Below, in pieces: positions 111-64,000 of a stretch of 64,000 nt of DNA (within the stretch, counting starts at the first letter, position 1; each line of letters begins with the position of its first letter). The notes below the pieces were generated by a model. The model ran no database searches. It had not been told where the DNA came from and worked only from the letters and a program-made list of their open reading frames with translations. The position numbers were made by a program, and so were the translations under genes. The DNA lies in contig NZ_JAENIK010000004.1 in assembly GCF_016595465.1 (NCBI RefSeq), positions 1-64,000 on the forward strand, written 5' to 3'. This stretch comes from Luteolibacter yonseiensis (GTDB taxonomy: Bacteria; Verrucomicrobiota; Verrucomicrobiia; Verrucomicrobiales; Akkermansiaceae).

Positions 111-228
111 ATACCTGGCGACGACCTACTCTCACAAGACCTATCGTCTCACTACCATCGGCGCTGCGGCGTTTCACTTCCGGGTTCGGAATGGGACCGG
201 GTGGTTCCACCGCGCTCTGGTCACCAGA
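111..228 (-). rRNA. rrf: 5S ribosomal RNA
   Basis: The minus strand carries the conserved 5S core, including the universal block around GAAACGCCGCAGCGCCGATGG at about 150-175 and the closing helix between CTGG near 228 and CCAGG near 115. It is the last gene of the rRNA operon, about 195 bases after 23S and immediately before the terminator. The exact ends (plus or minus 3 bases) are inferred from the pairing of the termini. Confidence 0.95.
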
Positions 229-421
229 GGGCAATCCTGGAGCCAACTTCCATTGGCGCAAAACTGAATCTCTGACGATCTGAGCTATGTCTTTGTCGAC
301 GGTCAAGCGGGCTTCGTTCCCTTCGCCCGCTCCCTGACATCCACACGGAGTTTTCAATAATTCCAAAACCTGATTTCCTCAGGTCCATTCACGGTCTCTT
401 GTCTTCACTAATTCAAAAATA

Positions 422-3277
<2,856 letters not shown>

Positions 3278-3503
3278 ATTCCTAATTGAAATCAGCCACG
3301 CGGACTTTTCCTTATCTTCCGATGAGGATAGTTTCCACGCTTTGCAGGTCTTTCGACCTGCCTACTGCCGGCATCTCTGCCGGCTTTGCCGTAAAAATTG
3401 ATGTATTTGGGAATTAGAATATATTCAAGGACCGCTAAGAATGGCTCTTTATGAGTCATCAATATTTATTGCAGTCTTGAAATTATTTGTTTCTCCATGT
3501 GGA

Positions 3504-3515
3504 TGTCAAAGAGCG
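3504..3515 (-). promoter_or_regulatory. boxA-like antitermination site in the 16S-23S spacer
   Basis: The minus strand reads GCTCTTTGACAT, close to the rrn boxA consensus (TGCTCTTTAACA). It lies between tRNA-Ile and 23S, the position of the second boxA in the E. coli rrn operons. The same 11-mer core GCTCTTTGACA occurs in the leader before 16S. NusB/NusE binding is inferred. Confidence 0.7.
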
Positions 3516-3560
3516 GACTCGTTTTTTCAGTATGGAACTTCAATCTCTTCGGTAATGGAA

Positions 3561-3637
3561 TGGTGGGCCTGATAGGACTCGAACCTATGACCCCCGCCTT
3601 ATCAAGGCGGTGCTCTAACCAACTGAGCTACAGGCCC
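3561..3637 (-). tRNA. ileT: tRNA-Ile (GAU)
   Basis: A 77-base cloverleaf on the minus strand, including an encoded CCA end. The acceptor stem GGGCCTG pairs with CAGGCCC, the anticodon loop is CTTGATAAG with anticodon GAT, and the T-loop is GTTCGAGTCC. It is the second tRNA in the rRNA spacer, counted in the direction of transcription. Confidence 0.97.
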
Positions 3638-3695
3638 ATTTGGATTCCACAAAGCGTTCCCTCCGTTGCCGGAGTCCGAGGCGCTTCATGAAAGA

Positions 3696-3771
<76 letters not shown>

Positions 3772-3811
3772 TTTACCGAGGGTGCCCGTTTCACGGGGTG
3801 GTGTTGAAGTG

Positions 3812-3840
3812 AGGAGAAAAGATTAAATTGTGCACTGCGT
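3812..3840 (-). other. 3' strand of the 16S precursor processing stalk
   Basis: The 14-mer AGATTAAATTGTGC (plus strand 3820-3833) is the exact reverse complement of GCACAATTTAATCT at 5669-5682, on the other side of 16S. With flanking near-matches (GAGGAGAAA against TTTTTCCTC) it forms a long stem looping out 16S, as expected of an RNase III processing stalk. Confidence 0.8.
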
Positions 3841-4014
3841 AACCTATCAATAAATACACAGTTGCGTGGTTTTTTGGTTTGGAACATCCTGCGATGTTCC
3901 GGTTTTAAGTGTTTCAGGTGTCTAACTTGCGTTTTGACAACCCCATCCCCCGTTGCCGGGAGCGGGGTCTCGACCTTTCACAGGGACCGTGAGAACGGTT
4001 TGTGAATTTCTCCG

Positions 4015-5556
<1,542 letters not shown>

Positions 5557-5663
5557 AAATGATCTGATCTTTCAGATGCCGTCGCCGGCACCCGCGATTC
5601 AAATCGGGGTTGTTGACTTCAAGAGCCAACTTCCGCGCACTGTTTCGATATTGAAACCAGATG

Positions 5664-20122: not shown

Positions 20123-21439
20123 ATGCGCCTCGGTTTCTCCGTTGACAGCAGGAATCGATATCCGGGAAATTCTGTTTTGTTGAAACCGCTCCAGTTCCTA
20201 CTTCCGGCAGCGACATTGGTTCTCGGTTCCTATTGGATCACCCACCAGGTGGGGACGCTTGCGGAGGTGGAACGTGGCAACTTGGAACTGAAGACCAAGA
20301 TCCGGAGCGGTTCCGTTTCCCGCTTCGATCAGCCGACGGAGACAGAGGAGCCGGTCATCAGGATCGGAAACGATTCCCACCCTCCGGACTGGAAAACAAT
20401 CCTCGCCCGGTTTTCACAAATCAAAACCGGCACTCCATACAATCCAAATATCATCAACCAGCAGCTCGGCGCGATGGATTCGGACGAATTGCTCGCCGCC
20501 TTGGATGAGATCGAGAGGTTGGAGGCATCGCGCCGGGAGAAGGATTGGCTGGTCGCGATGGTGGTCGGACCGCTGATGAAAAAGAACACCGAGGCGGGAC
20601 TCGACCGTTTTATCGATCGACTCGAAGACGCCGGAAGCGGATTCCTCGACGACTTGAACCGGGCCTTCGGGCAATGGGTGGAGGACAACCCGGCGGGTGC
20701 GCGGGCATGGTTTGATCGCCAGATCATGGCTGGAAATTTCGACAGCAGGACGATCGATGGCAGATCCCGGTCCCGAGTGGAATTCGAATCGATTCTGATG
20801 AAATCCATGCTGGCGGCAAATGTGTCGGACGCGCGTGACCGGCTTGCCGGGATGCACCAGGACCAGCGGGTCGAGGTGATGCAGGCATTCCAAGTCCCGG
20901 AGCTCAACGACCAGGAAATCAAAAATTATGCGTCTCTCGTCCGGGAACAACTGATGGAGGAGGATTCAAACCGTGTCATCGCGCGGACCACGGCCCGCGC
21001 GTTGATCCAATCCGACCTCGCCGGGGTGTCCCTCCAGTTGGATCGTATCGGCGCGACGCCGGCGGAACGCGTGGAGGCGGTCAAACAGGTGTGGTCGAAT
21101 ATCGAGATGGGTTTCGGCCCCTATCGCAGGTTGAGTCTCGAAAGGATCGATGCCGCACGAACGTGGATGACGTCCCAGGCGCCGGATGCGGATGTGGAAC
21201 GGATGATCGGCGGAACATTGGCCAAGGCCGCCAGGCAGGGAAGCCTGTCGTTTCCGGAGGCGCTGGCACAGGCCATTGTCTACTATGAAAATAGTGGCAA
21301 AGAAGACGGACTGGCGGGCTTCCTGGAAAGTGATGTCGCGGCGGAGCACCGTGCCGAAGCGATCCCTCTGCTGGACAAGGTGTCCGACACGGAGGTCCGT
21401 ACCAGGCTGGTGAAAAAACTCGAATCGGGAGACCGGTGA
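20123..21439 (+). CDS. A2: membrane-anchored helical protein, paralogue family A
   Basis: 438 residues from the ATG at 20123. Homology to A1 begins at a TTG at 20180 (KPLQFLLPAATLVLGSYWI, the membrane helix), which would give 419 residues and mirrors the TTG start of A1. Family marks are DWKTILARFS, DELLAALDEIERLE, FGQWVEDNPAGARAWFDRQIMAGNFD, and DTEVRTRLVKKLE. Function is unknown. It is followed by B2 after three bases, so the A-B pairing is repeated. It lacks a sigma domain, unlike A3. Confidence 0.78.
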   Translation: MRLGFSVDSRNRYPGNSVLLKPLQFLLPAATLVLGSYWITHQVGTLAEVERGNLELKTKIRSGSVSRFDQPTETEEPVIRIGNDSHPPDWKTILARFSQIKTGTPYNPNIINQQLGAMDSDELLAALDEIERLEASRREKDWLVAMVVGPLMKKNTEAGLDRFIDRLEDAGSGFLDDLNRAFGQWVEDNPAGARAWFDRQIMAGNFDSRTIDGRSRSRVEFESILMKSMLAANVSDARDRLAGMHQDQRVEVMQAFQVPELNDQEIKNYASLVREQLMEEDSNRVIARTTARALIQSDLAGVSLQLDRIGATPAERVEAVKQVWSNIEMGFGPYRRLSLERIDAARTWMTSQAPDADVERMIGGTLAKAARQGSLSFPEALAQAIVYYENSGKEDGLAGFLESDVAAEHRAEAIPLLDKVSDTEVRTRLVKKLESGDR

Positions 21440-61934: not shown

Positions 61935-63385
61935 GACTTGGGGTGTAAAAGCTGTGCAACCCGCAGTTTGGCACTGCGGGCTCGCGGGTTCAGGGAGATT
62001 TCTTCGGCAGATGGTGCGATGGCTTTTCTGCAAAGCAGCCGGTATTGGTAGTCGGGGTTCGGCCGGGGTTCCGGCCAACCGGGGTCATCGAGAAATTCGG
62101 TGGACCGGTGTTTGAGGAATCTCTTGACCATGCGGTCCTCAAGACTGTGGAAGGTGATGATGAGCAGGCGTCCCCCGGGCTTCAGGGCCGAGGAAGCGTT
62201 GGCCAGAGCGGTCGCCAGGGACTCGAGTTCCTCGTTCACCGCCATGCGGATGGCTTGGAAGGTCTTTGTCGCGGGATGGGTCCGCCCGTGACGACCGATC
62301 GTTTTCTCGATGAAGTCCGCGAGATCCAGCGTGGTGGTGAAGGGCTTGATGGCCCGCTGCCTGACGATGGCTCCCGCGATGCGCCTCGCTTTCGACTCCT
62401 CGCCGAATTCGAAAAGGATCCGCACGATCTCGGCTTCCGGCCATTTGTTCACGATGTCCGCGGCGGTGCGCGGGCTGGAAGGACCCATGCGCATGTCGAG
62501 CGGCCCCTCCCGCATGAAGGAGAATCCACGTTCGGCGGAGTCGAGCTGGCGCGAGGAAACGCCGAGATCCATCAGCAGTCCATCCGCGAGATCGCCCTGC
62601 CGGATTGCGGGGGTTTCCAGAAGCTGGGAAAAATTCCCCTCCCATGTGGAAAAGCGCTCGCCGTAATGCGCGAGGCGGGCGCGGGCATGCGCGAGCGCCT
62701 CCGGATCGCGATCCACGCCGAGCACACGGGCTCCGGATTTGAGAAAAATCTCGCTATGGCCGCCACCACCCAAGGTGCCGTCGATGATGAACTTGCCGGG
62801 GCCCGCAGCCATCCATTCTTCGGTTTCCGCAGGGAAAACCGGGAGATGGTAGCCATCCGCAGCCACGATTTCGGAAAAATTCACGGATGCCCGGGCCGAC
62901 AACCAGCCAGGAGCGGCGCAGGCATCCGTGGGAAGGGACGAAGCGGCGTGCTGTCCCGAGCCAGCCACTTCGTCCGATGGAATGTCTTCCAATCCCCGTG
63001 TTGTGGATTCGTCCGCAACAGGGCGGAGCGACTTGCCGAACAACGCTTCGAACCACCCGGCACGCCGTAGGGAAACCACAGCGCCAGGTGTTGGAAAATC
63101 TGTCGATGGCCGCGCTGACAACCAGCCAGGAGCAGCGCGGACCACCGTTTCAAATAGCGAGAGAAGCTCTGTCCCGAGAGACTTCTTACGCCCAGCCATG
63201 AAAATTTGAGGAAACCGCACCGACAACCAGCCAGGAGCGGTGCGGTCCTCCGTCGACCATCCGGCAAGCTGTCCCGAGCGTGCCGCATCGTCTGAAAAAA
63301 CTCCCGGACCCGACAGGCACACGAAACCGGCCGGAGCCGCAAGGCGGGCCGTATCGTGGGTCGGAATGGGTGGGGTGAACAACAT
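61931..63385 (-). CDS. rsmH: 16S rRNA (cytosine1402-N4)-methyltransferase RsmH with repeat-bearing N-terminal extension
   Basis: The frame has 484 residues. From about residue 168 it is a standard RsmH: YHLPVFPAETEEWM, SAM-binding IIDGTLGGGGHSE, GLLMDLGVSSRQLDSAERGFSFM, and the ending LITFHSLEDRMVKRFLKH. The first ~167 residues have no similarity to RsmH and contain three copies of a DNA element (APGWLS in each). The extended frame begins 33 bases after the mraZ stop, which argues for coding, but a GTG at 62884 directly before the conserved part is the other candidate start. It methylates N4 of C1402 in 16S rRNA. Confidence 0.8.
   Translation of the reverse strand: MLFTPPIPTHDTARLAAPAGFVCLSGPGVFSDDAARSGQLAGWSTEDRTAPGWLSVRFPQIFMAGRKKSLGTELLSLFETVVRAAPGWLSARPSTDFPTPGAVVSLRRAGWFEALFGKSLRPVADESTTRGLEDIPSDEVAGSGQHAASSLPTDACAAPGWLSARASVNFSEIVAADGYHLPVFPAETEEWMAAGPGKFIIDGTLGGGGHSEIFLKSGARVLGVDRDPEALAHARARLAHYGERFSTWEGNFSQLLETPAIRQGDLADGLLMDLGVSSRQLDSAERGFSFMREGPLDMRMGPSSPRTAADIVNKWPEAEIVRILFEFGEESKARRIAGAIVRQRAIKPFTTTLDLADFIEKTIGRHGRTHPATKTFQAIRMAVNEELESLATALANASSALKPGGRLLIITFHSLEDRMVKRFLKHRSTEFLDDPGWPEPRPNPDYQYRLLCRKAIAPSAEEISLNPRARSAKLRVAQLLHPKS
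62874..62960. repeat. Palindromic element copy A in rsmH
   Basis: Starts GAAAAAT, contains an outer 10-bp perfect stem (CACGGATGCC / GGCATCCGTG), an inner CCG/CGG stem around the conserved 15-base loop ACAACCAGCCAGGAG (62899-62913) and ends CTGTCCCGAG (62951-62960). Confidence 0.75.
63094..63178. repeat. Palindromic element copy B in rsmH
   Basis: Starts GAAAATCTG, has an 8-bp perfect stem CCGCGCTG / CAGCGCGG around the same 15-base loop (63118-63132) and ends CTGTCCCGAG (63169-63178). The stem sequence differs from copy C, but pairing is kept. Confidence 0.75.
63200..63278. repeat. Palindromic element copy C in rsmH
   Basis: Starts GAAAATTTG, has a 9-bp perfect stem ACCGCACCG / CGGTGCGGT around the same 15-base loop (63223-63237) and ends CTGTCCCGAG (63269-63278). 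Distance from loop to end block is shorter than in A and B by five or six bases. Confidence 0.75.
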
Positions 63386-63417
63386 CGTGGTTGTCGAATG
63401 TGGAAGGGATGAAAAAT

Positions 63418-63870
63418 TCAGAAAATACCGAGATCGTCTTCGGCGTCCTCGCCAGTGAGATGCGCCAGGTAGGTGTCGAAGTTGGCCTTGCTCCAGATCT
63501 CGAAATTCATGCCGCGGCCGGCCAGGACCACGTCCGAGTCGGGAGCGATCCCGGCTTTCTCGCTCAGATCCTTGGGCACGAGCAACTTGCCCTGCTCGTT
63601 GACCGCGGCTTCACGTGAGAGCAACGCGAGCTTGGCAAGCAGTTTGGATTTCTCCGCAGGGGTCTTGTCGCTCCCGTTGATGACCGACACCTTGTGCCCA
63701 TAAGCTTCCTTGCTGAGCACGCGGACCAACGGCAGCCCCTGATCCTTCGCGAACAACAGATAGAGGGACGTTCCCACCTCGGGCCGCCATGACGCCTGGA
63801 CCGAAACCCGGAACTTCGGGTCGATCTTATACGGGTGAAATCCCGTGTAGCGTTGGTTGTCAATTTCCAC
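63418..63870 (-). CDS. mraZ: Transcriptional regulator MraZ
   Basis: 150 residues with two MraZ/SpoVT-AbrB-like domains: the first starts YTGFHPYKIDPKFRVSVQASWRPE, the second includes AAVNEQGKLLVPKDLSEKAGI. The motif DxKxR is kept (DPKFR). MraZ represses its own dcw operon by binding short direct repeats upstream of its gene. The start is GTG. A fitting 10-bp tandem repeat lies about 35 bases upstream. Confidence 0.92.
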   Translation of the reverse strand: MEIDNQRYTGFHPYKIDPKFRVSVQASWRPEVGTSLYLLFAKDQGLPLVRVLSKEAYGHKVSVINGSDKTPAEKSKLLAKLALLSREAAVNEQGKLLVPKDLSEKAGIAPDSDVVLAGRGMNFEIWSKANFDTYLAHLTGEDAEDDLGIF

Positions 63871-63902
63871 TGGAGGCAGGTGTCGTTTGTGTCAGTGGCA
63901 GC

Positions 63903-63922
63903 AAAGTACACCAAAATACACC
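63903..63922 (-). promoter_or_regulatory. Tandem 10-bp repeat, probable MraZ operator
   Basis: On the minus strand GGTGTATTTT followed by GGTGTACTTT, nine of ten bases alike, at the 10-bp spacing expected for MraZ boxes. It overlaps the spacer and -10 of the proposed promoter, fitting autorepression. Confidence 0.5.
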
Positions 63923-63932
63923 GAGCCAGCAA
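63905..63932 (-). promoter_or_regulatory. Candidate promoter of the dcw cluster
   Basis: Minus strand TTGCTG (63932-63927), 16-bp spacer, TGTACT (63910-63905), about 34 bases before the mraZ GTG. A perfect TATAAT at 63964-63959 in the very A/T-rich window end is a second candidate. Confidence 0.45.
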
Positions 63933-64000
63933 GATGAAACTGTGGCATTTTTATTGAAATTATAATTCATTTAAAATAAGATATTTAAATAAATTATTAC

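Follow-up and report, generated by a model that had tools for sequence, protein, structure and literature searches.

A tandem two-hairpin RNA element within the rsmH reading frame of Luteolibacter-like bacteria, with similar units in phage-type contigs

Searches for structured RNA elements normally look outside coding sequence. The palindromic elements of Rickettsia are palindromic units that lie in frame inside ORFs, with many copies dispersed over unrelated genes. The locus described here lies in a window of 64,000 nt, the whole stretch of Luteolibacter yonseiensis DNA that was analyzed, in which a sequence-only reading had likened three repeats in rsmH to these elements. The likeness holds for a palindrome placed in frame inside an ORF, no detected unit interrupting the frame in 55 of 56 same-genus rsmH genes (the exception is that of genome G009). 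It does not extend to dispersal, since the three copies that our covariance model R1, built from a 53-unit alignment, places above chance in the window's own genome are all in rsmH.

A candidate RNA named for the same gene, the mraW motif (RF01746; mraW is rsmH), appears in a table of PMC2864571 among likely cis-regulators, for Actinomycetales. This motif has no match in the window at the gathering score, nor in 62700-63999 with the limit relaxed to E 5, and, compared with it, our element is tandem, sits inside an ORF, belongs to another phylum and has phage copies. Rfam as a whole gave no relevant match at the gathering score in the window or in loci L137, L180, L182 and L142, and only unrelated sub-threshold matches at E up to 5 in 62700-63999. 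ANTAR-binding RNAs consist of two adjacent hairpins recognized via terminal-loop residues and tied to attenuation (PMC3369931). Our units also have two hairpins, and the hexaloop of the first (H1) carries a G at position 4 in 155 of 157 distinct loops. However, while ANTAR sites have a hexaloop in both hairpins, with A at position 1 and G at position 4, the loop of our second hairpin (H2) is 15 nt long, position 1 of the H1 loop is mostly C (A in 9/157), and the stems are long. A search for ANTAR proteins in the window's own genome gave no match, the search control being likewise unmatched.

The third described system is the HK022 putRNA, a phage-borne RNA of ~70 nt with two stem-loops that acts in cis on transcription, the put sites being located downstream of early promoters (PMC9378689). 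The array unit also displays two adjacent stem-loops, in ~99 nt instead of ~70, but its placement probably differs from that in early operons, the phage copies being beside late genes and the host copies in rsmH. No description of the element was found in the literature searched, most subscription journals being outside its reach. We rate the element as a new structured-RNA family, and as an unusual variant because it is tandem and within a translated frame.

The array in rsmH

The rsmH (mraW) ORF runs uninterrupted on the minus strand from its ATG at 63385 to 61931 (484 aa), the open frame across the repeats thus being as originally described, and it follows mraZ (PF02381; 63418..63870, minus strand), whose stop is 32 nt before the rsmH ATG. 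Since the Pfam Methyltransf_5 domain spans RsmH residues 179-478, 178 residues (62852..63385) precede the catalytic domain, and it is this N-terminal extension that harbors the array. On the rsmH sense (minus) strand, each unit consists of H1, with hexaloop CGGGAC, then H2, with loop CTNCTGGCTGGTTGT, and then a U-rich tract. The H1 hexaloop is usually closed by U-A or C-G, while the H2 stem has eight pairs, in many cases extended by further pairs beyond a one-base step. Unit 1, the first in the mRNA, is at 63203..63296 (R1 score of 80.1 bits, E 2.1e-13), with its H1 hexaloop at 63271..63276 and its H2 loop, CTCCTGGCTGGTTGT, at 63223..63237, 39 nt apart. Unit 2, at 63098..63196 (97 bits, E 6.0e-17), has loops at 63171..63176 and 63118..63132, 44 nt apart. 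In unit 3, at 62879..62978 (75.3 bits, E 2.2e-12), the H1 hexaloop at 62953..62958 is 45 nt from the H2 loop and in a different frame from that of unit 2, and arms at 62882-62898 and 62914-62930 flank the H2 loop at 62899..62913; all of these features are on the minus strand. When the array region was folded, it was more stable than its shuffles (z = -4.58), none of 100 being as good.

This layout confirms part of the sequence-only reading and redraws the rest. The three copies of ACAACCAGCCAGGAG are real (62899-62913, 63118-63132 and 63223-63237), and an exact search found only these three in the 5.73-Mb assembly, which is 96.6% complete (zero in a backward control). As claimed, the flanking arms differ between copies and yet pair, e.g., CACGGATGCCCGGGCCG with CGGCGCAGGCATCCGTG, and the block CTGTCCCGAG is read in differing frames, as LGT or SGQ. 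However, this shared block, while real, is not the end of the repeat but the loop of H1, and the equally real shared GAAAAT is not its start but the U-tract after H2 as it appears when the minus strand is read from the other side. The proposed length of 80-87 bp was too short, the unit being ~99-105 nt.

Comparison between units and species argues that RNA is what is conserved. In the 53-unit alignment, 91.7% of the cells of the named structure are paired and 14 of 15 pairs have changed on both sides; none of 500 shuffles reached any of five measures, and sliding the partner by 1-3 columns lowers pairing to 36-51%. Among distinct hairpins, at H2 pairs 0-7 and H1 pairs 0-2, there are 63 G-U against 20 A-C, with G-U in excess in 33 of the 56 genomes, A-C in excess in 5 and a tie in 18, counts that are not independent because units and species are related. 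The reverse is seen at H1 pairs 3, 4 and 7 (A-C vs. G-U of 41:7, 9:2 and 48:10) and at H2 pairs 11-12 (42:3 and 45:8), which we read as unpaired or out-of-register columns and hence did not count. Since G-U exceeds A-C at the positions counted, the sense RNA is the probable structured strand, and covariance likewise supports the minus (rsmH sense) strand.

The loops are near invariant across units, while the stems change with compensation. The hexaloop is CGGGAC in 145 and AGGGAC in 9 of the 157 distinct H1 loops. In the H2 loop (142 distinct hairpins), columns 1, 4, 7 and 13, which are third codon positions, show their commonest base in 125, 129, 140 and 139 hairpins, compared with 86 for column 2, a first codon position. 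At +19 to +21 after the H2 loop, T is present in 121, 145 and 149 of 164 array units. We consider it very likely that the array is an RNA element under selection, and the comparison of sequences shows that this selection bears on structure and loop letters, most likely in the sense RNA.

Where the gene was read, the array is usually tandem and in frame. A stem test identified 162 H2 hairpins in 55 genomes, and a looser test 168 candidate two-hairpin units in 56 genomes, 114 of them with loops 44 nt apart; by script detection, there are 1 to 8 units per genome. Nineteen of 187 H2 candidates had been dropped since they were without H1, several of them 35 nt after a true H2 at a TGGCTGGGCG stretch, and a few false units of this kind may remain among the 168 (e.g., in G031 at -222). 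H1 counts come from a stricter list, the looser one having contained many false matches. Successive H2 loops are separated by 105 nt in 72 of 107 cases, then by 108, 117, 102 or 210 nt, and in one case by 106. H2 lies in the same frame in 158/162 hairpins, the four others being two in G028, one in G009 and one, in G031, that is probably false, whereas, in the 164 units with their H2 loop in the usual frame, the start of the H1 loop falls in frame 2 (147 units), frame 1 (15) or frame 0 (2). In G018, G028 and G034, the rsmH frame runs to the end of contigs that are not full. At G009:C139 3296-3500, where the 106-nt spacing is found, the frame misses the first unit, while near position 20,500 of G028:C408 a T11 run coincides with a frame change; either may be a sequencing error or a slippage site.

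As for the protein, most of the 56 loci share the start ATG and the codons that follow it (MLFTPP or a close variant), so the array region is probably translated, which would give peptides such as SLGTELLSLFETVVR. We compared codon positions in 29 species pairs, drawn from 13 genomes with one common layout of the last unit. Differences at first, second and third positions were.106/.073/.392 in the catalytic domain,.165/.286/.319 in array linkers,.148/.226/.261 in the H1 stem,.100/.092/.210 in H2 stems and.076/0/.014 in the H2 loop. Some protein constraint is therefore possible, since the third position is the most variable in all classes except loops, H2 stems included. The proposal that structure and not protein is conserved is supported in the main, protein-level constraint on the 178-residue extension appearing weak but not absent. 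In an AlphaFold2 model based on a 30-sequence alignment, residues 1-176 have a pLDDT <50 and no secondary structure, while the methyltransferase that follows is mostly confident, except for 277-297. The N-terminal extension is thus predicted to be disordered.

Distribution in host genomes

Within the family, R1 matches were found in 88 of 260 genomes, 71 from the window's genus and 17 from a second genus, i.e., in 2 of 16 genera. The only misses listed for the window's genus are G008 (79% complete) and G033 (70%), in which no RsmH was found either. R1 matched 35 of 59 genomes in a sample of relatives and 10 of 387 in a phylum sample; these runs, like that on the family, used Infernal's stricter filters, with which weak matches are lost. 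Among the matches listed, R1 hits one place per genome, save for small contigs taken as split arrays. A fourth match in the window's own genome (L123, E 0.25), inside a LamG-type gene, was taken as chance.

Searching for the exact H2 loop in 99 relatives gave 41 genomes, all from the same genus (41/61) and none from other families of the order (0/38). In one of the 41, G057, the match (G057:C183) is in another gene, without a hairpin, and was put down to chance; the rsmH gene of that genome carries its own array. The RsmH query itself matched in 95 of the 99 relatives, although in G025 and G059 the scores were no better than those of a paralogue. When rsmH was read directly, the element was present in all 56 same-genus and 6 second-genus genes, a reading that covered loci with a recognized domain motif and so left out five, G057a and 4 of 14 loci from other families. 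The frame before the domain is open in all six second-genus genomes that were read. Four of these (G417, G275, G397 and G341) match the usual-frame loop pattern, while G409 and G367 do not match it but are matched by R1, and the second genus has an extra H2 variant, TTCCATGGCTGGTTGG.

A strict two-loop pattern was also run over 84,980 species genomes, a collection without entries for the window's own genome or very close ones, and it returned 56 stretches, one of them (L126) in the cultured Luteolibacter pohnpeiensis KCTC 22041. Their titles name Akkermansiaceae, Verrucomicrobia (also Verrucomicrobiaceae, Verrucomicrobiales and Verrucomicrobiota), Luteolibacter and Haloferula, and some are in metagenome-assembled genomes (MAGs) labeled Prosthecobacter debontii or Akkermansia. 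They also include a phage-like contig of a Hyphomonadaceae MAG (L137) and a Streptomyces contig, the match in the latter (L142) being rejected as chance. Comparison thus shows that, in the host genomes covered, the element is found only in rsmH of Luteolibacter-like genera. The three repeats are more than a local triplication, as both copies elsewhere and covariation exist, and outside rsmH the two-hairpin unit was found only in phage-type contigs.

Two further observations concern RsmH genes in the order. In ten loci from other families (among L090-L102), an open frame of 198-411 nt without repeats precedes the domain motif. The window's own genome has a second RsmH-like gene (G000:C9:132958-133716, 41% identity) in which R1 finds no copy, and many relatives have similar second matches.

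Units in phage-type contigs

Seven loop-pattern scans of viral contigs were combined with that of the species genomes, and stem tests and R1 then left eight phage-type contigs of five lineages, each with one similar hairpin pair beside late genes. Seven of these contigs are IMG/VR records, while L137 belongs to a genome bin. As the contigs were picked by loop letters, only their stems and positions, including the site shared by L137 and L418, are independent evidence. R1 scores are 47.8 bits for L137, 45.2 for L197, 40.8 for the unit common to L180, L181 and L182, 34.0 for L418, 24.9 for L183 and 19.4 for L345. The last two score like L430 (22.4 bits) and L190 (19.8 bits), which fell outside the two-hairpin candidates of the stem tests, lack the H2 loop or hairpins and were not counted; the case for L183 and L345 is made by loops and stems judged by eye. 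L226 was also left uncounted, since its perfect H2 loop is on an AT-rich stem without H1. In a minimum-energy fold, other pairings compete with H1 of L183 and L180. For the seven contigs other than L418, the source records were searched for further copies, and none above chance was found.

The contigs L137 and L418 come from related phages, their large terminases being 90% identical. In both, the RNA directly follows a tail-fibre-like ORF of 90-91 aa (44% identical between the two), and the RNA site, H1 loop and H2 loop core are equal, while the stems differ. L180, L181 and L182 share one unit, flanked in L180 by an ORF that weakly matches a protease and by a major head protein gene. The unit follows the portal gene in L197, a head protein gene in L345 and, in L183, an ORF that we took by eye for a capsid protein and that has no PHROG or INPHARED match. 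Model matches start close to where the upstream ORF ends, from 8 nt before that point to 11 nt after it (L137, L180, L183, L197, L345 and L418). H2 runs straight into UUUUUC in L137 and L418, and reaches it two bases later in L345, whereas L197 and L183 have no clear U-tract.

Two of the five lineages are tied to Verrucomicrobiota by their proteins. When 189 genomes of the order were searched, the ORF of L183 matched in 8, among them G038 (87%), which belongs to the same genus as the window. The L197 portal matched in 28 of the 189, its closest counterparts (38%) being in two Verrucomicrobiota genomes, compared with ~26% in the phage collection. Relatives of the phage contigs in INPHARED were limited to distant proteins, at best ~33% identical, with none for L183. 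The element is missing from the prophage-like locus of G038 closest to L183. At G038:C52, the site homologous to the L183 RNA has a long nested hairpin of different sequence.

Possible functions of the array

Our best overall explanation, which we hold tentatively, is a tandem cis-acting RNA whose loops are read by a putative trans factor, with a regulated attenuator as the most likely mechanism. The array would represent tandem copies of one clade-specific structured RNA, in which the apical loops, CGGGAC in H1 and NNNCUGGCUGGUUG(U) in H2, would be the recognized parts, followed by a U/C tract, with the stems mainly holding the loops up. The two apical loops are the constant parts, as would be expected of a site that a factor recognizes. 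We infer that a trans-acting factor of these hosts reads both loops, although no candidate was found, and that phages may have recruited the same site, which they would keep only if it is useful to them.

As to mechanism, it is possible, with somewhat less assurance, that H2 and the U-tract form a weak terminator or pause that is set by the loop-binding factor. In rsmH, ribosomes on the leader would unwind the units, so that entry into the mraZ-rsmH-dcw transcript would need translation as well as the factor. In phages, the relative output of neighboring late genes would be set by the unit. We rank attenuation first, antitermination second and processing third because U follows H2 in L137, L418, L345 and the array. 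In the array, this tract is short, starts several bases past the stem and falls in a conserved Phe codon. A terminator scan gave no site in the array, although it considers only loops of 3-8 nt and the H2 loop has 15. A terminator at this place in the operon is difficult to account for unless antitermination also takes place.

It is fairly unlikely that the element is a put-kind antiterminator, whose nascent two-hairpin RNA would act on RNA polymerase, directly or with a factor, so that transcription reaches the end of long operons (dcw and phage late genes). The two stem-loops per unit are consistent with this, both settings are likely long operons from whose antitermination phages would benefit, and putRNA offers an RNA-only precedent in HK022 (PMC9378689). 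The phage copies, however, adjoin packaging and head genes, whereas the HK022 put sites described there are downstream of early promoters. We also find unlikely an RNA processing or stability site, at which a host nuclease or binding protein would cut or protect the hairpins and so set the half-life of phage late-gene and rsmH mRNAs. Phage units do start near the end of the upstream ORF, like processing sites between genes, but repeated cuts within the rsmH frame would destroy the message, and it is the loops, not the stems, that are conserved.

A selfish or mobile palindrome of the Rickettsia type, tolerated in frame and spread between phage and host, seems improbable. It would account for in-frame tandem copies, for copy numbers of 1 to 8 per genome and for a prophage-like G038 locus with an ORF 87% identical to that of L183 but no element at that place. 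However, it sits poorly with the lack of dispersed copies in the window's own genome, with the single place per genome among the matches listed and with loops fixed over two genera and phage copies.

Autoregulation by likeness to rRNA, in which RsmH or the 30S subunit would bind the array, H1 resembling or pairing with 16S rRNA, is highly improbable. In its favor, CTCGGGAC is the exact complement of positions 538-545 of the own 16S, which read GTCCCGAG (window minus strand), the complement of the H1 loop region, and GTCTCAAG is at that 16S site in the places listed for those genomes of the order, 36 of 141, that matched the search pattern. However, an 8-base match is expected by chance ~0.2 times in the rRNAs by our estimate. 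The 16S pattern used misfits the genus itself, and, since it misfits the window's own 16S, the result informs on those 36/141 genomes only. Moreover, H1 variants such as AGGGAC break the pairing, and the phage copies would need another reason. The longest loop-rRNA pairings, 8 nt if exact (H1/16S) and 12 nt with G-U (H2/23S), are both near chance by estimate. The rRNA genes are in the window, where 113-5557 on the minus strand holds 5S, 23S, two tRNAs and 16S, each matched at full model length. Equally remote is a protein repeat, with the 35-residue peptide (LGT...APGWLSAR...F) as the selected product: spacings that are nearly always multiples of three, H2 in one frame in 158/162, the conserved ATG leader and the variability of third codon positions in stems and linkers would fit, but the contrast between codon positions is weak beside that of the catalytic domain, the H1 loop stays the same across two or three frames, the stems are compensatory, disorder is predicted and the phage copies come after stop codons.

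Returning to loops read by a host factor, a wider version, which we regard as doubtful, is that the two-loop code (CGGGAC and UGGCUGGUUG) belongs to an RNA-reading system of the Luteolibacter branch, in which the translated array, built into the gene of a 16S rRNA methyltransferase, would make expression of the cell-division operon depend on translation and on ribosome quality, while phages would run their late genes with the same code. What makes the locus of interest is a covarying RNA repeated inside the rsmH frame over two genera, at the price of a long and apparently unneeded protein tail, while phage-type contigs carry similar units outside coding sequence. The question is directly testable because the in-frame RNA in rsmH has these noncoding phage counterparts: the loops predict a binding partner, and the host and phage copies are natural mutants. 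For this group of bacteria, extended RsmH annotations may reflect selection on RNA.
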